A DNA stretch of 38,349 bases. Source: a virus. The translations under genes were made by a program, and so were the position numbers. The stretch lies in IMG/VR virus record IMGVR_UViG_3300017744_000041, positions 1-38,349 of that record. The stretch is one strand, 5' to 3'. Under the pieces are notes generated by a model. The model made no database searches. It saw nothing but the letters and a program-made list of their open reading frames with translations, and had not been told where the DNA came from. Below are positions 4,089-15,011 of the stretch, in pieces; within the stretch, counting starts at the first letter, position 1; each line of letters begins with the position of its first letter.

Positions 4089-4487
4089 ATGTTACAGCAA
4101 TTAATCGGCCCCGTTTCGGGATTACTAGACAAATTCATAGAGGATAAAGATAAAAAGAATGCCATTGCATTTGAACTTTCAACTATGGCTGAGAGACATG
4201 CACAGGAGCTTGCGAAAGCACAGATTGCTGTTAATCAGAAAGAAGCGGCACATAAGAGCCTCTTTGTTGCGGGCTGGAGACCTGCTGTGGGATGGGTATG
4301 TGTTCTGGGCATGGCGAGCAACTTTATGGTTATCCCACTGGCCAACTTTGCGCTTGCTCTGGCTGAATCTACGGTTGTGGTTCCAATCCTTGATTTGACA
4401 CAGATGATGCCTGTACTTATGGGTATGCTTGGCTTAGGCGCAATGCGTACTATGGAGAAAACCAAAGGCGTTCAAAGGGAGCGATAA
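4089..4487 (+). CDS. Holin, 3-TM family
   Basis: 132 aa matching the 3-TM holin family seen in marine phages and gene transfer agents. It has an amphipathic N-terminus (IGPVSGLLDKFIEDKDKK), a helix with ERHAQELAKAQIAVNQKEAAH, the signature FVAGWRPAVGWVCVLG, and further hydrophobic segments near residues 75-115. It would form holes in the inner membrane and release the amidase encoded at 16221. It lies between membrane proteins and the terminase genes, where T7 places its lysis genes. Confidence 0.88.
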   Translation: MLQQLIGPVSGLLDKFIEDKDKKNAIAFELSTMAERHAQELAKAQIAVNQKEAAHKSLFVAGWRPAVGWVCVLGMASNFMVIPLANFALALAESTVVVPILDLTQMMPVLMGMLGLGAMRTMEKTKGVQRER

Positions 4488-4488
4488 G

Positions 4489-4704
4489 ATGAAAAAAGAT
4501 TCTAAACTAGAAGAACTCCATGAGTTATTGGCAACAATACTATTGGATAAGATAAGAGACCCTGAGTGTAAATCAGCAGAGCTTAATGTAGCCCGTCAGT
4601 TCCTCAAGGACAATGACGTTACAGCTATACCTACAGATGAAAATGCTCTAGCACAACTGTTAGAAGACCTCCCATTTGATGCAGAGACAACACACATACA
4701 GTAA
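4489..4704 (+). CDS. terS: Terminase small subunit (T7 gp18-like)
   Basis: 71 aa, starting one base after the holin stop. It has a short helix (LEELHELLATILLDKI), then ELNVARQFLKDNDVTAIP and a C-terminal LAQLLEDLPF. This arrangement is typical of small terminase subunits of T7-like phages, which recognise concatemer junctions and recruit the large subunit. Its position between holin and large terminase matches T7. T7 gp18 is about 89 aa, so this one is slightly short. Assignment rests on pattern and context. Confidence 0.8.
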   Translation: MKKDSKLEELHELLATILLDKIRDPECKSAELNVARQFLKDNDVTAIPTDENALAQLLEDLPFDAETTHIQ

Positions 4705-6529: not shown

Positions 6530-6541
6530 GTAGGAAGGAAG

Positions 6542-6655
6542 ATATATCCCTATAGATAAAACTATAGATAACCTAAAGATGACTATGGAATAAGATTATT
6601 TAGGAGATGATATAAGTAATATATCTATAGATAAAACTATAAGATAACTTAAGGA
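6542..6655 (+). repeat. Imperfect direct repeat of a leader sequence
   Basis: Two copies of an AT-rich segment lie at about 6542-6579 and 6619-6655. Both contain CTATAGATAAAACTATA then (A)GATAACYTAARG. The second copy ends in AAGGAG and is the ribosome site for the gene at 6662. The first ends in AAAG followed by ATGACTATGGAATAA, a 4-codon ORF. This looks like a tandem duplication of a gene leader with a decayed first copy. The repeats are about 77 bases apart. Confidence 0.6.
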
Positions 6656-8073: not shown

Positions 8074-8835
8074 ATGCAAACTTTTAGCAATCGAAAAGCA
8101 ACACCAAACGCAAAGCCTAAAGAAAAGGGCTTTATATTGTATGAGGGTAAAAGCCAACTTGATGGCGAGCCAATTGTTTACATAGCCACACTATCGACCA
8201 GTAACCGAAAGACTGGCGATATGGTGCAGACTTGGATTTTAAGGAGTGACTTAGAGCCAACCGAGGCAAGCAAACAGGGTAAAGATGTTTCTATTTGTGG
8301 GAATTGTCCGCAACGCTGGCATAGTGGCGGGGCTTGTTATGTAAATATAGGGCAAGCACCTCTTGCAATCTATCGAGCATATAAAAAAGGCGTATATTCT
8401 AAGTTTGATATTGAAATACATGCGCCAATTTTAGCTAGTCGCAAAATAAGGCTCGGTGCTTATGGTGACCCTAGTGCAGTACCTTTTGAGATAAACAAAA
8501 CACTCACCGAGATTGCTACGGGTCACACTGGCTATACTCACCAAATCGCGCACAAAAACTTTGACAAGCGTTATATTGATATTTTGCAAGTTAGCGCAGA
8601 TACACCAAAACAGGCACAAAAGTTTCAAAGTCTAGGTGCTAAAACTTTTCGCGTAGCATTACCAAACGACCATTTATTTGACAATGAGATTGAATGCCTG
8701 AGCGAAAGTAAAGGAATAAACTGTATTGATTGCGGTCTATGCGATGGGCAAACCAAAAATATTGCTATTGTTGTTCACGGGTCGCGCAAAAATAACTTTA
8801 AATCTAACCTTATCGCGTCCGATGCTATCCACTAA
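8074..8835 (+). CDS. 253-aa conserved phage protein with Cys clusters, unknown function
   Basis: It has a conserved N-terminal part with LSTSNRKTGDMVQTWILRSDL. A Cys cluster follows near residues 75-90 (CGNCPQRWHSGGACYVN), then IRLGAYGDPSAVPFEI, and a second cluster near 215-225 (CIDCGLCDG). It ends TKNIAIVVHGSRK.. I recall relatives in many phages under a DUF name (possibly DUF7227) without a proven role. The Cys spacing suggests bound metal or an Fe-S cluster. It is the largest early gene and is flanked on both sides by the TATCCACTARGGCA element (the 3' copy makes its stop codon). It therefore looks like a self-contained cassette. Confidence 0.8.
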   Translation: MQTFSNRKATPNAKPKEKGFILYEGKSQLDGEPIVYIATLSTSNRKTGDMVQTWILRSDLEPTEASKQGKDVSICGNCPQRWHSGGACYVNIGQAPLAIYRAYKKGVYSKFDIEIHAPILASRKIRLGAYGDPSAVPFEINKTLTEIATGHTGYTHQIAHKNFDKRYIDILQVSADTPKQAQKFQSLGAKTFRVALPNDHLFDNEIECLSESKGINCIDCGLCDGQTKNIAIVVHGSRKNNFKSNLIASDAIH

Positions 8836-9051: not shown

Positions 9052-9247
9052 GCGTTACGACTTCACGCGCATTAAAAACAATAAGGATAGAACACGAATT
9101 ATTGATGAATTTTGCGAGATTATTACTAACGGCAATTATTCTGCAGCCGAAACAATGGCAATCAGAAAAGAGTTAGTTGGTGATTATCTTGAATCATGTT
9201 CCTTGGATAAATCATGTTCCCTACAGGAGAAAGACAATGAACAGTAA
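9044..9247 (+). CDS. 67-aa early protein of unknown function
   Basis: I choose the ATG at 9044, which overlaps the previous stop by eight bases, over one at 9008. The product is MVERYDFTRIKNNKDRTRII.. with helical NYSAAETMAIRKELVGDYL. It ends with a small internal repeat (ESCSLDKSCSL) encoded by two copies of AATCATGTTCC. Its last 11 bases overlap the HTH gene that follows. Confidence 0.6.
   Translation: MVERYDFTRIKNNKDRTRIIDEFCEIITNGNYSAAETMAIRKELVGDYLESCSLDKSCSLQEKDNEQ
9192..9220 (+). repeat. Direct repeat AATCATGTTCC x2 upstream of the HTH gene
   Basis: Copies lie at 9192-9202 and 9210-9220, 18 bases apart start to start, ending 16 bases before the HTH gene's ATG. They are inside the preceding coding region. 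They could be operator sites for autoregulation, or a chance local duplication. Confidence 0.4.
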
Positions 9248-9434
9248 ACTTAAACAAATAGAGTTTGATATAGTATGCCAAGCATTACGCAGAAACCGAG
9301 AAGAATTATCTCAGGTTGCTGGTATACATTTAAACACTTTAAATAGGGTTCTACATGGTAAAAAGTATTCATTCGATACTCTTTATCGTGTTGAGCAAGC
9401 CCTTAAAACAGTGCCAGAGAAGGAGGTATTTTAA
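9237..9434 (+). CDS. Small helix-turn-helix regulator (Cro/XRE-like)
   Basis: 65 aa from the ATG at 9237, chosen because AGGAGA lies seven bases upstream; a longer frame from 9177 has no such site. Residues 12-50 form a likely HTH: ALRRNREELSQVAGIHLNTL then NRVLHGKKYSFDTLYRVEQ. This is the usual XRE/Cro pattern with a recognition helix near HLNTLNRVL. It is a good candidate for a lysis-lysogeny or early-gene regulator, given the integrase 2 kb downstream. The direct repeat just upstream is a possible binding site. Confidence 0.75.
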   Translation: MNSKLKQIEFDIVCQALRRNREELSQVAGIHLNTLNRVLHGKKYSFDTLYRVEQALKTVPEKEVF

Positions 9435-9436
9435 TC

Positions 9437-9766
9437 ATGGTAAATTTAGATTGGCTAACTGAAGCAGAGTACAAAGAAGCCTACAAGAAAGCCCAAGCTA
9501 TCTGTGCTGAGTTTTATGCAGATACAGATGAGGGCGAAGAAACATGGTCTGAAATAGAAATTGGCGATAAAGTCTTTGACTTAAACTGTTGGGAAGAAGA
9601 TGACCCTCAGTATGACTGGGAAGATTTTGACACAAGACAAAACCCAGTTCACTGCACTTTATATCCTGTTTACTGGGATGATGGGGGCGAAGGTTACAGA
9701 GTAACTGATTGGGATAATGCACTCACACTTTTCACAATTAAGGAGAAAAATCATGTTGACTTATAA
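9437..9766 (+). CDS. Very acidic 109-aa early protein
   Basis: Strong AAGGAGG upstream, starting two bases after the HTH stop. Roughly a quarter of the residues are Asp or Glu (stretches DTDEGEETWSEIEIGD and CWEEDDPQYDWEDFD), giving a strongly negative net charge near -20. It is also rich in Trp and Tyr. Size, charge and early position are like those of DNA-mimic anti-defence proteins such as T7 Ocr (117 aa), but there is no sequence likeness. The end overlaps the next ATG by 14 bases. Confidence 0.75.
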   Translation: MVNLDWLTEAEYKEAYKKAQAICAEFYADTDEGEETWSEIEIGDKVFDLNCWEEDDPQYDWEDFDTRQNPVHCTLYPVYWDDGGEGYRVTDWDNALTLFTIKEKNHVDL

Positions 9767-9953
9767 AGACAAAATGTCTGATGAACTTGAAAAAGCCTTA
9801 GATGATGTATGGTTGGCGTTAGATTGCTATAGGGAGAACTGTATCTATAGCGATGAATTTGAATCATTACGCATTAAAATAGGTAAACAATTTAATCTAA
9901 TAGAAACTACACTGGTTGAACTATATAAGGAGAAAAATCATGACAAAAGATGA
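9753..9953 (+). CDS. 66-aa acidic early protein
   Basis: The ATG at 9753 follows AAGGAGAAAAATC, preferred over a start at 9717. The product MLTYKDKMSDELEKALDDVW.. is helical and acidic. Its ribosome site plus start (AAGGAGAAAAATCATG) is repeated exactly before the next gene, suggesting the two genes arose by local duplication of the leader. Function unknown. Confidence 0.65.
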   Translation: MLTYKDKMSDELEKALDDVWLALDCYRENCIYSDEFESLRIKIGKQFNLIETTLVELYKEKNHDKR

Positions 9954-10077
9954 GTTTATAGAAGTTGTATTTGAAATCGCTTTTGGCGATAACGCGATAA
10001 ACAGAGACTTCTCATACGCAGAAGTACTTGAAGTCTTGCGAGCATATTCAGATGAAGCATTGGGGTATGAGGACTAA
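9940..10077 (+). CDS. 45-aa acidic early protein
   Basis: It starts with the same AAGGAGAAAAATCATG block as the gene before it and overlaps that gene by 14 bases. The product is MTKDEFIEVVFEIAFGDNAI.. ending SDEALGYED, strongly acidic with probable helices. No family recognised. Confidence 0.6.
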   Translation: MTKDEFIEVVFEIAFGDNAINRDFSYAEVLEVLRAYSDEALGYED

Positions 10078-10080
10078 ATT

Positions 10081-10275
10081 ATGTTGATACCAAATAGCGA
10101 TTATGTTGAAAAAGAAGTCGAGATTGCAGAGTTTATGTTCCTGAACCAATACGGAATAACTTTTGATACACTTGATGAACTTAGTGAAGACTATCAAGAC
10201 AAGTGGCTTCAGTGCGTAGACGATGCCTCATACATACTGCATATTGCAGAAATTAAACAGGACATAACAACATGA
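10081..10275 (+). CDS. 64-aa acidic early protein
   Basis: ATG three bases after the previous stop, with GAGGA seven bases upstream. The product MLIPNSDYVEKEVEIAEFMF.. is acidic, with DELSEDYQDKWLQCVDDASY. Its stop overlaps the next ATG (ATGA). Fourth in a run of five small acidic genes. Function unknown. Confidence 0.65.
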   Translation: MLIPNSDYVEKEVEIAEFMFLNQYGITFDTLDELSEDYQDKWLQCVDDASYILHIAEIKQDITT

Positions 10276-10463
10276 AGCTACCAACACTAGAAGAGTTCGA
10301 TATCATGTGCCGCGACCATGACTGGTACTATATGCACAGTGATGACCATAAGGTATGGTCGAGGGGTAAAACTAATTCTAATCTTTTAGACACTATTGTA
10401 AATGATGGTGGACAGGAGTATAAAGAAGTTTATCTTAATCATGTTAAATATTTGAGAGGGTAA
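10272..10463 (+). CDS. 63-aa early protein
   Basis: It begins in an ATGA overlap with the previous gene, so translation is coupled. The product MKLPTLEEFDIMCRDHDWYY.. is rich in Asp, His, Trp and Tyr (MHSDDHKVW). I recognise no family. It is less acidic than its neighbours. Confidence 0.6.
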   Translation: MKLPTLEEFDIMCRDHDWYYMHSDDHKVWSRGKTNSNLLDTIVNDGGQEYKEVYLNHVKYLRG

Positions 10464-10468
10464 TAATC

Positions 10469-10591
10469 ATGTCAGGTAAGGGAAGCAAACAACGTCCAAC
10501 TAACAAGGCTGCATTTGATAAAAACTTTGATGCAATATTTCGTAAACCAAAACCAAAGAAGGAGAAGAAGAATGACAAAGCTAGTCGCTAA
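10469..10591 (+). CDS. 40-aa basic protein, MSGKGSKQRP type
   Basis: ATG with GAGAGGG about 10 bases upstream. It encodes MSGKGSKQRPTNKAAFDKNF.. then DAIFRKPKPKKEKKN. Short proteins with MSGKGS-x-RP and a downstream N/F-D-x-IF motif occur in a great many phage genomes, with no known role. It overlaps the next gene by 20 bases and carries that gene's AAGGAG in its Lys-rich tail. Confidence 0.7.
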   Translation: MSGKGSKQRPTNKAAFDKNFDAIFRKPKPKKEKKNDKASR

Positions 10592-10763
10592 TCCTGTTGT
10601 TCCTGTTAAGAGCATACCTATTGAGTTAGCTATACGCTTGGAGCGTAACAGGATATTTGACATTGAGTTTGAGACGGGGGAAAAGCCAGATGATACTACC
10701 TTGAACAGAATGTATAACTTACAGGCTATGGGTATATCATGTTGGCATGACCCTAATTTTTAG
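10572..10763 (+). CDS. 63-aa early protein of unknown function
   Basis: The ATG at 10572 is preceded by AAGGAGAAGAAGA and is preferred over a start at 10515. It encodes MTKLVANPVVPVKSIPIELA.. with a helix (IRLERNRIFDIEFETGEKP) and ends ISCWHDPNF. No family recognised. It closes the run of tightly packed early genes, after which come element copy 5 and the regulator/integrase block. Confidence 0.6.
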   Translation: MTKLVANPVVPVKSIPIELAIRLERNRIFDIEFETGEKPDDTTLNRMYNLQAMGISCWHDPNF

Positions 10764-10835: not shown

Positions 10836-11099
10836 TTGTATTTTTATACTAAATACCCATTTAAATTGTATGAGTTGTATTTTGAATGGAAGAAAGACAA
10901 CACGCCTTTTTATAGTTGGAACTGGTGTTGTGGGGAGTTGTTTATTTGTTTGGGTGTTATGCGAATCATCTTCACACCAACCATTAAAAAACATAAACCA
11001 AATCATAGTGATGGAAACAATAATAAAATTAGAAGAGACAAAGATAAATCATCATCAGGCAGCGTCATCTCTATTAAAAACAGTAGAAAGGTTTCGTGA
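10836..11099 (+). CDS. Possible 87-aa protein from a TTG start
   Basis: TTG start with a strong AGGAAG five bases upstream. The N-terminal half reads like a compact folded phage protein (YPFKLYELYFEWKKDNTPFY, then SWNWCCGELFICLGVMRIIF), with a hydrophobic strand pair or membrane segment. The last third is basic and Ser/Asn-rich and overlaps the winged-HTH gene by 89 bases. Protein-like composition and a good ribosome site support it; the rare start and the overlap argue against it. Not recognised with certainty. Confidence 0.45.
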   Translation: MYFYTKYPFKLYELYFEWKKDNTPFYSWNWCCGELFICLGVMRIIFTPTIKKHKPNHSDGNNNKIRRDKDKSSSGSVISIKNSRKVS

Positions 11100-11382
11100 G
11101 ATAGATGGTGAGATGCAAGCACAAGCTATGGCAGTGCTATTAAAAGTCGCAAAGAGTCCTTTGCCATTGAAGATGCACGACATAGCAGTAGAACTTGGGC
11201 TTAGTCAGTCAACTATTAGTAGGAATGTAGCTTATCTTGGTGACTGGAATAGGCGTAAAGAGGCAGGGCATAAGTTGTTAGAAGCCTACGAAGACCCTGC
11301 TGAACGTAGGCGTAAACTGGTGAGATTGACAGCTAAAGGTAAGAGGTTTGTCAAATCACTTAATGAAATTATTTACTCATAA
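11011..11382 (+). CDS. Winged helix-turn-helix regulator (MarR-like)
   Basis: 123 aa from the ATG at 11011. The frame is open further upstream (from 10747), but that part reads as a shadow of the overlapping small gene. It has a helical N-terminus, then a wHTH: LPLKMHDIAVELGLSQSTIS, RNVAYLGDWNRR, and a wing/strand (RRRKLVRLTAKGKRFVKSL), as in MarR proteins. There is no clear ribosome site. The integrase starts 11 bases after its stop, so it may regulate integration or act as a directionality factor. Both are inference. Confidence 0.75.
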   Translation: METIIKLEETKINHHQAASSLLKTVERFREIDGEMQAQAMAVLLKVAKSPLPLKMHDIAVELGLSQSTISRNVAYLGDWNRRKEAGHKLLEAYEDPAERRRKLVRLTAKGKRFVKSLNEIIYS

Positions 11383-11392
11383 GGAGTATATT

Positions 11393-12394
11393 ATGCCAGT
11401 ACGAGCGAGAGGTAATTCATGGCAAGTCGATGTCCGAAAGCGGGGCATAAGGTTTCGCCATACATACAAAACGGAAGACCAGGCTAACGTCATGTTGGCT
11501 AAGGTCGAAGAAGCTATTAGTCTAGGAAAGGCACTGCCTGACCCTGAAGACTGCAACGATGGTCGAGCGATGACCATTGCTGCCCTTTTAAGGAAAGCTG
11601 GGGAGAAGTATTGGAGTGACACCAAGCATGGTTATCTTACCTTGCGAGGAATAGAAAAAATGATTGAGGAATATATAGGCGAGAATCGTGCTTTATCTGA
11701 CCTTAATTTAGACTTTATGGATGAGTTAATTTCCCACTTCAAAAAACAAGGTAATGCCAGTGGAACAATCAATAGGAAACTTAGCATTGTATCTAAGGCT
11801 GCCACCTATGCCAAAGACCGAGGGTTGATTGACTACAAGCCTAAGATTGAATGGCAGAAAGAAGGGAAAGGGCGTATCCGTTTTGTAACCCCTGAAGAAG
11901 AAGCTATCATGTATCGTGTGTTGACACAGATGGGCTACTTTCAGGAGCGTGATACATTCATGTTTCTTATAGACACAGGGATGCGTGTTGGCGAACTTAA
12001 AAATCTGCGCTTTGATGATTTACAGGGCAATAATTTAACCATCTGGGAAACTAAGGCAGACCATCCAAGAACTGTCGTGTTGACTAAACGAGCCTTGGAT
12101 ATTTTCTTAAATAACAAAGGTAAGATGGGAATGCCCTATCAAAAACTAATTGACCACTGGAACCACATGAAATGTGTAATGAACCTGAAGGATGACGAGC
12201 AGTTTATTCCTCATTGTCTCAGACATACTTGTGCTTCTCGTCTTGTGCAGCGTGGTGTTCCAATTTTAGTTGTACAGCAGTGGCTTGGTCACAAGACTAT
12301 ACACATGACAATGCGCTACGCTCACCTCTGTCCTACGAATTTAGAGGAGGCAGTAAAAGTGCTAGAACCCACTGTGACACAAGCTGTGGCATGA
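11393..12394 (+). CDS. int: Tyrosine-recombinase integrase
   Basis: 333 aa from the ATG at 11393 (AAGGAG seven bases upstream; the in-frame start at 11348 is worse). Catalytic set is complete: R198 in TGMRVGEL, K221 in WETKADH, H274 and R277 in HCLRHT, H300 in WLGHKT and nucleophile Y309 in MRYAHL. The N-terminal 60 residues form an arm-type domain with RGNSWQVDVRKRGIRFRHTY. It should integrate the phage DNA into a host attachment site, often a tRNA gene. Position just upstream of the RNA polymerase matches integrase-bearing T7-like marine phages. I could not identify attP. Confidence 0.95.
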   Translation: MPVRARGNSWQVDVRKRGIRFRHTYKTEDQANVMLAKVEEAISLGKALPDPEDCNDGRAMTIAALLRKAGEKYWSDTKHGYLTLRGIEKMIEEYIGENRALSDLNLDFMDELISHFKKQGNASGTINRKLSIVSKAATYAKDRGLIDYKPKIEWQKEGKGRIRFVTPEEEAIMYRVLTQMGYFQERDTFMFLIDTGMRVGELKNLRFDDLQGNNLTIWETKADHPRTVVLTKRALDIFLNNKGKMGMPYQKLIDHWNHMKCVMNLKDDEQFIPHCLRHTCASRLVQRGVPILVVQQWLGHKTIHMTMRYAHLCPTNLEEAVKVLEPTVTQAVA

Positions 12395-12596: not shown

Positions 12597-15011
12597 ATGT
12601 ACAAAACTACTGATAGACAGGTCGAACTAGAGCGTGAGATGCGAGAGCATGGGTTGTCACGCTACCACAAAAACATTGCTAAAAAAGTAGAGCGTGGGCA
12701 GGAAGCTAATACGGACTACGGACAATATTTATTAAGAGCAACAGTAGAAAAACTTGAAGAATCTATTAAGGAGTTTTTAGAGGATTCTTTGAGAGGGAAA
12801 GCAGGGAGAGCAGCCACATCAGCAGTTCTTGTTGACGCACTTGAGCCAGCAGTCACCGCAGTTATAACTTTGCGTGTCGTGTTGAATCAAATCACCAGGC
12901 AAAGAGCCTATAGTTCAGCCTCGATTGCACTGGGCATGGCTATGGAAGATGAGATACGCATCAGGTGCTATGAGGAAAACAATCCAGGGCTTTTTAAAGT
13001 TGTTATGCGTGACCTGAATGAACGCTCTCAGTCATATACATATAAGCGTAAGAAACTTTTAGAGACTGGTAAAAGGGAGGGCATAGACTGGCGAGTATGG
13101 ACACAGAGAGAAAGACTTTTGGTGGGCAATGCTTTGATTGACCTGACGATACAGCACACAGGGTTGTTAGAGCATAAGATAATGAACAAGGATGGCAAGA
13201 AGCGTAGACTTTTGTTGCCTTCTGAACTCACCATGAAGTCTATCAAAGACCTTAATGCTTTTAAGGAAGTGCTGAAGCCTGAGTTTTATCCATGTATATC
13301 ACCCCCAAAAGACTGGACATCACCCTATTCTGGCGGGTATCACACTCATCACATCAGAGAACTTTCTCTTGTTAAGACTACAAACCATAATTATCTCGCT
13401 GAGTTGAAGCATTTTGATATGCCTCATGTATATGGTGCTGTAAATGCCATGCAAAACACAGCTTTCAAGGTGCATACGGGGGTGCTAGACACATTAAAAA
13501 GAATATGGGACACAGGGATACACATTCCTACCTTACCACCCTCAGAAAACTTCCCAATCCCTGCAAAACCTCTTGACATAGCTACAAATAAAGAGGCGAG
13601 AACTGCCTGGAAGAGGCAAGCAGTGATAATCCACACAGAAAACAACAGGCTTGACTCTAAAAGACTCCTGTTGAGAAAGACTATCGAGGTAGCTGACAGG
13701 TTTTCTACTGAAGAAGCACTTTATATGGTGTATCAACTTGACTTTCGGGGAAGAATTTATGCGGTTCCTAATTATCTTAACCCACAAGGGCCAGATTTTG
13801 CTAAAGGACTGTTGACATTTGCTGAAGGAAAAGAAATTAACGAAGAAGGGGCGTGTCATTTAGCTATTCATGGTGCAAATTGCTTTGGTTTTGACAAGGT
13901 AGGGTTACAAGACCGAATAGATTGGGTGCAAAAAAATCAAGAGCGAATTGTTAATTGTGCAATTGACCCTTTAGCTGACCTCTGGTGGGCTAAGGAAGCC
14001 TCAAGTCCCTTTCAATTCTTAGCGTTCTGCTTTGAGTGGAAAGGATGGTGTGAAGATGGGGCTGGGTTTGTGTCTCACCTACCAGTCAGTGCTGATGGTT
14101 CATGTAATGGATTGCAACACTTTGCTGCTATGCTTAGGTCAACTACAACAGGGCAAGAAGTAAACCTAGTGCCTAATGAAGAGCCTCAAGACATCTATCA
14201 AAAGGTAGCTGATAGGGTAACTCAACGTCTACATGAGATGGATGATGAGTTAGCAACGCTATGGTTACAGTTTGAGGTGAAGCGTGGGTGTACTAAACGC
14301 CCTTGTATGGTGCTTCCTTATGGTGGCAAGCAGTATTCATTTACTGATTTTGTTATGGATTACATTGTAGATGAGAAAGAGAAAGGAAACATGCACCCTT
14401 TTGGTGAAGACCCTTTCAAAGCATGTACATTTCTAGCCAAAGTTATCTGGTTATCTATAGGTGAAGTCGTTCACGCAGCTACAGATGCTATGGCATGGTT
14501 ACAGAAGGCAGCAAGGACAGCATCATCAGAGGGATTACCTATTAGATGGGACACTCCAGTAGGCTTTCCTGTACTCCAGGCATACAAAGAAACTAAGCCA
14601 TACCGCATCGAGACAAAACTGTTAGGCACTTCCTTTAGACCTATGCTGTATAAGGAAACAGGTAAGATAAATAAACACAGACAAAGCAATGGCATTAGCC
14701 CTAACTTTGTACATAGTATTGATGCGGCTCACATGATGTTGACCATTGATGTAGCAACTCAATGTGAGATACATAATTATGCTATGGTACATGATAGCTA
14801 TGGTACACATGCAGCAGATGCAGAGACCCTATGGTGGTGCTTACGCAAAGCCTTTGTTGAAATGTATTCACAGACAGATGTGCTTGAAGACTTTAGGGCT
14901 GACTTGTTAGATGTATTACCTAAAGACAAGCATCATTTAATACCACCAGTACCAGAAAAGGGTGATTTAGACATAGCTTTAGTTGAAGAGTCAGAGTTTT
15001 TCTTTAACTAA
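12597..15011 (+). CDS. Phage single-subunit RNA polymerase (T7 gp1-like)
   Basis: 804 aa from the ATG at 12597, chosen for AAGGTG seven bases upstream; an in-frame ATG at 12570 lacks a ribosome site. T7 RNA polymerase is 883 aa. Catalytic residues are present: first Asp in SADGSCNGLQHF (D500), Lys and Tyr in CTKRPCMVLPYGGK (K567, Y575), second Asp in AMVHDSYGTH (D733). Also VYQLDFRGRIYAV near residue 375 and the C-terminal FFFN, comparable to the T7 end DFAFA, which is part of the active site. It transcribes the middle and late genes from phage promoters. Early position right after the integrase suggests its expression decides between lysis and lysogeny. Confidence 0.97.
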   Translation: MYKTTDRQVELEREMREHGLSRYHKNIAKKVERGQEANTDYGQYLLRATVEKLEESIKEFLEDSLRGKAGRAATSAVLVDALEPAVTAVITLRVVLNQITRQRAYSSASIALGMAMEDEIRIRCYEENNPGLFKVVMRDLNERSQSYTYKRKKLLETGKREGIDWRVWTQRERLLVGNALIDLTIQHTGLLEHKIMNKDGKKRRLLLPSELTMKSIKDLNAFKEVLKPEFYPCISPPKDWTSPYSGGYHTHHIRELSLVKTTNHNYLAELKHFDMPHVYGAVNAMQNTAFKVHTGVLDTLKRIWDTGIHIPTLPPSENFPIPAKPLDIATNKEARTAWKRQAVIIHTENNRLDSKRLLLRKTIEVADRFSTEEALYMVYQLDFRGRIYAVPNYLNPQGPDFAKGLLTFAEGKEINEEGACHLAIHGANCFGFDKVGLQDRIDWVQKNQERIVNCAIDPLADLWWAKEASSPFQFLAFCFEWKGWCEDGAGFVSHLPVSADGSCNGLQHFAAMLRSTTTGQEVNLVPNEEPQDIYQKVADRVTQRLHEMDDELATLWLQFEVKRGCTKRPCMVLPYGGKQYSFTDFVMDYIVDEKEKGNMHPFGEDPFKACTFLAKVIWLSIGEVVHAATDAMAWLQKAARTASSEGLPIRWDTPVGFPVLQAYKETKPYRIETKLLGTSFRPMLYKETGKINKHRQSNGISPNFVHSIDAAHMMLTIDVATQCEIHNYAMVHDSYGTHAADAETLWWCLRKAFVEMYSQTDVLEDFRADLLDVLPKDKHHLIPPVPEKGDLDIALVEESEFFFN

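Follow-up and report, generated by a model that had tools for sequence, protein, structure and literature searches.

What does a phage gain from a tightly packed run of five small, largely acidic proteins? Such a run, genes A to E, occupies positions 9437 to 10463 of the window, by which we mean the whole 38,349-nt stretch of viral DNA analyzed here. A preliminary description of this DNA placed five packed genes there, called them early and mostly very acidic, compared the first with the DNA mimic Ocr, and read early position plus acidity as a sign of host takeover or counter-defense. We asked how much of this picture holds and which function the run most probably serves.

The five genes and their setting

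Open reading frames are present on the + strand at all five positions, and three of the four junctions overlap (gaps of −14 for A/B, −14 for B/C, +3 for C/D, and −4 for D/E; Table 1). When codon scores were trained on the large genes of the window phage, each of the five scored above zero in its annotated frame (0.10 to 0.34 bits per codon), and nearly all other frames scored below zero. The good ribosome sites ascribed to the whole set are found ahead of A (AAGGAGGT) and of B and C (TAAGGAG), where they are strong, whereas those of D and E are weak and consist of AGGA only. Relatives of B, D, and E in other phages have dN below dS in all computable pairs except one. From codon usage, ribosome sites, and the conservation of B, D, and E, we conclude that the five ORFs are genuine genes.

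Table 1. Coordinates of the five genes, their neighbors, and two junction linkers in the window
Feature	Position	Strand	Length (aa)	Net charge	Remarks
HTH gene (small, Cro/C1 type)	9237–9434	+	65		Immediately 5′ of A; Pfam HTH_26, 22.7 bits (cutoff, 22)
Gene A	9437–9766	+	109	−21	Orphan; predicted helix 9–29 and five strands
Linker copy 1	9739–9755	+			TAAGGAGAAAAATCATG; B's ribosome site and start, within the end of A
Gene B	9753–9953	+	66	−4	Relative in L008, L003, and L013 at 94% identity, dN/dS 0.14
Linker copy 2	9926–9942	+			Identical to copy 1; C's ribosome site and start, within the end of B
Gene C	9940–10077	+	45	−9	Window only; compared with L008, inserted between B and D
Gene D	10081–10275	+	64	−12	Relatives in L008 (86%) and L004 (73%); three helices predicted
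Gene E	10272–10463	+	63	−3	phrog_16661; relatives in L004, L008, L009, and Methylophilales and Vibrio phages
Genes F and G	10469–10763	+	40 (F), 63 (G)		Small conserved early genes 3′ of E; F basic
Winged-helix (MarR-like) regulator	11011–11382	+			Homologous to HTVC019P gp10 in position and in the C-terminal half
Tyrosine integrase	11393–12394	+			
T7-like single-subunit RNA polymerase	12597–15011	+			Nearest named relatives, Pelagibacter phages (44–45%)

Acidity is less uniform than first described: A, C, and D are indeed very acidic, but B and E are not (Table 1). For A, a content of about one-quarter Asp plus Glu and a net charge near −20 had been estimated, in good agreement with the 26.6% and −21 that we measured (29 acidic and 8 basic residues among 109). 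When ORFs of at least 90 aa were called mechanically in eight sequences (the window, three related viral loci, T7, two pelagiphages, and one prophage-bearing locus), only T7 Ocr (−28 over 117 residues) among the 167 obtained had a more negative net charge per residue than A. Small acidic early genes are nevertheless common in this phage group. In the window and its relatives L004, L008, and L009, about 13 of some 56 early ORFs reach a net charge per residue of −0.15 or lower, examples being proteins of 98 aa and −16 in L004, 61 aa and −10 in L008, and 87 aa and −12 in L009. Acidity is therefore weak evidence for any single function.

Searches of A to E against Pfam, PHROGs, NCBIfam, and PADLOC matched E alone. 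The statement that none of the five belongs to a known family fails at this gene, which matches the phrog_16661 profile over residues 9 to 47 with an E value of 1.3e-5; the family has no assigned function, and the similarity of E to its relatives in Methylophilales and Vibrio phages is weak. For none of the five was a functionally characterized relative found. The model of D (three helices, pLDDT 84) gave no clear fold match.

The window encodes an ssDNA-binding protein, an endonuclease, a primase-helicase, a DNA polymerase, a connector, a terminase, and a single-subunit RNA polymerase, the gene set of a T7-like phage. Small genes on one strand lead into a regulator, an integrase, and then the RNA polymerase, which is the layout of an accessory early block; the placement of regulator and integrase just ahead of the polymerase gene is that of the temperate pelagiphage HTVC019P. 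The temperate T7-like phages HTVC019P, HTVC022P, and LUZ100 all share this one-strand order, but their small early genes are unrelated in sequence to those of the window, and the small early genes of HTVC019P and Eistla, pelagiphages of similar layout, are neutral to basic, unlike the window's. In HTVC022P, which is of the HTVC019P type, the regulator, integrase, and polymerase show early expression, and genes of the same time class are grouped (PMC12753301). This expression, together with gene order and synteny with the HTVC019P type, suggests that the cluster is early, as originally described, although A does not stand at the start of the region and has about seven genes ahead of it. The authors who described Pseudomonas phage LUZ100 regarded the hypothetical proteins of its early region as presumably serving host takeover (PMC10134795).

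The window phage is probably temperate. A prophage search with its RNA polymerase yielded solely a 35% match in a Rhizobiaceae bin, and the window carries no tRNA genes. Sigma-70-like sites in the window are no more frequent than in shuffled sequence. The HTH gene ahead of A, which lies narrowly above the HTH_26 cutoff, could act as a regulator of the block.

Gene turnover and linkers among relatives

The block changes gene by gene between relatives. A matching region is present in L004, in L008 (with near-copies L003 and L013), and in L009. Overall, these relatives keep the polymerase at 90 to 95% and the integrase at 76 to 83% while the small genes change; L004 has 90% in the polymerase and 76% in the integrase to the window, and the integrases of L008 and L009 stand at 83% and 81%. 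All three carry E; D is shared by L008 and L004, B is found in L008 alone, and A and C are missing from every one. Between the HTH gene and B, where A lies in the window, L008 has an unrelated 54-aa gene of net charge −9. This slot is empty in L004, where the HTH gene runs directly into D. An extra acidic gene of 60 to 61 aa is found 3′ of E in L008 (4704 to 4889) and 5′ of E in L009 (3100 to 3282). Differing gene content among close relatives is a feature of an accessory early block.

Several joints of the block carry a short linker that contains the ribosome site and start codon of the downstream gene. The linker lies within the end of the upstream gene, so that unrelated proteins have C-terminal residues in common (KEKNH, KENSNVG). 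One linker, AAGGAGAAAAATCATG, stands ahead of B and C in the window and ahead of D in L008 and L004; another, AAGGAGAATAGTAATGTC, stands ahead of F in L008 and L004 and, in L008, also ahead of the extra gene. A column-shuffle test of linker similarity was significant also in T7, Eistla, and Pecta, and alike ribosome sites within one genome are thus not special. The case for exchange comes instead from the same linker standing ahead of different genes in different relatives. A similar arrangement is known from gene 68 of Island3, a small orphan gene of the Cluster I mycobacteriophages whose end repeats that of the upstream gene in both protein and DNA and whose insertion was attributed to recombination at common boundary sequences (PMC3029335). 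The common stretch there is about 50 bp, compared with 16 to 20 nt for the linkers found at several joints of the window block.

Other differences among these phages were seen in passing. The 60- to 61-aa acidic gene has moved across E between L008 and L009, and in L008 it is flanked by two copies of AAGGAGAATAGTAATGTCGG. A phrog_2554 gene of the window (253 aa, 8074 to 8835), which is flanked by copies of the CTATCCACTAAGGCA motif, is absent from L008 and L009; its place is taken there by a gene of 281 to 283 aa (L008 1902 to 2747; L009 909 to 1760) with no BLAST similarity to it. Gene D differs from its L004 counterpart (4354 to 4548) by 24 amino-acid-changing and 3 silent changes, at a silent distance of 0.09, far under the 0.3 to 1.1 of neighboring genes, and recent exchange is possible. 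Diversifying change in D was considered for the same pair (dN/dS 2.0) but was not significant (Fisher P = 0.30).

Gene A and known acidic inhibitors

By tblastn, A had no match at E values up to 1 in 50,697 phage records that include T7, and just two unrelated places were returned at E values up to 10. Searches of plasmids, viral contigs, bacterial and archaeal contigs, related phage records, and the PDB likewise gave no sequence relative. Two candidates were set aside. A 41-residue match among 398 genomes of one phylum (E value of 0.009) lies within an 808-residue open frame and was taken as chance. A 98-aa protein of net charge −15 (L037:631-924) was not established as a distant relative by shuffling, as its local score with A was equaled by 74 of 2,000 shuffles and its end-to-end score by 9 of 2,000, and it came seventh by z among 175 proteins. 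In a related phage it lies close to the regulator and integrase, and its MAFFT alignment with A shows weak collinearity, at 29%.

An AlphaFold2 single-sequence model of A, of moderate confidence (pLDDT 74, pTM 0.68), has 25% helix and 33% strand, with the helix followed by strands at residues 35 to 42, 45 to 53, 71 to 80, 86 to 88, and 96 to 101. We infer from this model that A would adopt a fold of helix plus sheet. Acidic residues are concentrated in the stretches 29 to 35, 53 to 66, and 81 to 93 (18 of 29), and 16 of the 29 lie outside predicted helix and strand. Model confidence is lowest at the final residues, that is, the translated linker. The best fold matches in Foldseek are two uncharacterized phage proteins, A0A8S5MBN3 (119 aa) and A0A6J7WWD0 (93 aa), each aligned to A with a probability of 0.99 over most of the length, but the E values are only 0.014 and 0.034, identity is 15 to 16%, and neither has an assigned function. 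Fold comparison of A with the PDB gave nothing convincing, the top entries being type II secretion pseudopilins with Z scores of 7.6 or less, which is the background of the tool. Ocr, ArdA, and Ugi are not among the PDB fold matches listed, an absence that excludes nothing.

Ocr, the gp0.3 protein of T7, is a DNA mimic directed against type I restriction, and DNA mimicry is also possible from unrelated folds. The proposed likeness of A to Ocr holds for size (109 versus 117 aa) and charge and goes no further. Acid content is 27% in A and 29% in Ocr, both genes have an early-type position, and A displays the strong acidic excess of the Ocr family, for which Ocr itself has 34 acidic and 6 basic residues. 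In contrast, tblastn of the same phage records, T7 among them, detected no sequence similarity of A to Ocr, and gp0.3 is first in the T7 early region whereas A is about eighth in its own. As to the structural comparison that had been suggested as a check, Ocr, an elongated and DNA-like homodimer, is about 60% helical (PMC4872106), and A, with a helix and five-stranded sheet predicted at a pLDDT of only 74, is not expected to share its fold.

The uracil-DNA glycosylase inhibitors Ugi and SAUGI resemble the model of A in being small, acidic, phage-type proteins with a helix and an antiparallel sheet. The predicted order of helix and strands in A differs from that of Ugi, and Ugi is not among the fold matches listed. 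The Ugi/SAUGI pattern E-X6-[ED][ED]-X-[ED][ED] and the natural ESI motif are both absent from A, in which only ETW at residue 35 fits the relaxed synthetic form of the E-x-hydrophobic motif found in strand 1 of Ugi (patterns from PMC10303552). In one systematic study, the phage proteins picked as Ugi-like by composition failed a Ugi functional assay, and acidity is a poor guide to DNA mimicry (PMC10303552); this sets a sober prior.

Interpretation of the block and motifs of the window

Our preferred reading, to which we assign a probability of roughly 0.55, is that the five genes form an accessory early host-interaction block of an integrase-carrying T7-like phage, gained and lost singly, in which A is perhaps a small acidic inhibitor. 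The block would probably be read into a single transcript, earlier than the phage RNA polymerase or together with it. Close relatives gain and lose its genes individually, the joints falling at the short ribosome-site/start-codon linkers, and each phage would end up with its own set of small host-interaction proteins. The product of A would most likely be small, folded, and of alpha/beta type, with acidic loops that attach to a basic surface. This surface could be where a host enzyme of restriction, repair, CRISPR, or transcription binds nucleic acid, and A would block the enzyme by stoichiometric binding. The more specific the role given to A, the more cautiously it is put forward. That A inhibits a host nucleic-acid-binding protein is a tentative proposal, and that it serves counter-defense specifically is doubtful. 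We consider it unlikely that A, as a counter-defense protein of an aquatic T7-like phage, is the first member of a family of DNA mimics built on a sheet and unrelated to Ocr, ArdA, and Ugi, with other unrelated acidic inhibitors in the same slot of relatives. The block is known in kind, and A is an orphan candidate, a plausible but unproven inhibitor. Of the original argument for host takeover or counter-defense, the dense early-type block with content that varies between close relatives, a pattern to be expected of such genes, survives, and so does the exceptional acidity of a 109-aa protein of Ocr-like size; acidity by itself carries little weight, since it is common in the group.

Several other explanations were weighed against this one. 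The five genes may be unremarkable small accessory ORFans whose roles vary or are nearly neutral, their acidity reflecting a bias of early proteins across the group rather than mimicry or inhibition. The frequency of acidic early ORFs, one of them DpnD/PcfM-like, fits this, as does the dispensability of A and C in relatives. For its length, however, A stands out in absolute charge, and small early phage genes kept by selection, as B, D, and E are, usually face the host; we regard this explanation as possible but not the one to prefer. An inhibitor of host RNA polymerase comparable to T7 gp2 might also be expected, because T7-like phages require a switch from host to phage polymerase. D would be the likeliest candidate, being kept in two of the three relatives and equal in length to gp2 (64 aa, acidic, net −5). 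It has no sequence or fold match to gp2 and is predicted to consist of three helices, and it is the MarR-like regulator that has been proposed to redirect transcription in such phages (PMC12753301), which leaves a gp2-like role improbable.

Anti-CRISPR operons provide another model, with A as the inhibitor and the adjoining HTH gene as its regulator. A is close to the mean length of known Acrs (104 aa), lies in a small, unannotated, co-directional run, and has an HTH neighbor, but this neighbor is immediately 5′ of A, and the characteristic Aca gene is 3′ (PMC7391736). No HTH gene follows A within three genes; the next regulator (11011) is seven genes on, past a 247-base gap. The downstream HTH gene accompanies only about 40% of known Acrs (PMC7391736), and the lack of homology of A also counts against this model, which we consider quite improbable. 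Least credible of all is that A truly belongs to the Ocr family and has diverged from it in sequence: length and charge are similar, but the predicted helix and sheet do not agree with the largely helical Ocr (PMC4872106), sequence similarity is absent, and A is not first in its early region.

If A or its slot-mates in relatives block host defenses, uncultured phages offer new inhibitors in compact form in this block, and the slot between linkers shows where more may be sought. If they do not, the block still illustrates clearly, and within sharp limits, how small genes turn over in the early region of a phage.

Recurrent motifs were also noted in the window. With up to two mismatches, CTATCCACTAAGGCA occurs eight times, always on the + strand (7986, 8053, 8825, 10775, 12539, 15014, 20605, and 36309), where 1.2 copies are expected. 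The copies are mostly intergenic and lie on either side of the RNA polymerase gene, that at 8825 being upstream of the cluster, and the motif is a candidate promoter for the phage RNA polymerase. A T7-promoter-like string within gene B, TGCTATAGGGAGAA, was not a recurrent motif. A second motif, AATACCCACCATATAAG, has three + strand copies (6513, 15032, and 21737; 0.17 expected) where the early, replication, and structural blocks border on one another. A direct repeat of 28 nt (86%) lies on the + strand at 6539 to 6566 and 6614 to 6641, after the terminase gene and ahead of the early genes; it ends in TCTATAGATAAAACTATA and is possibly a promoter or operator pair.
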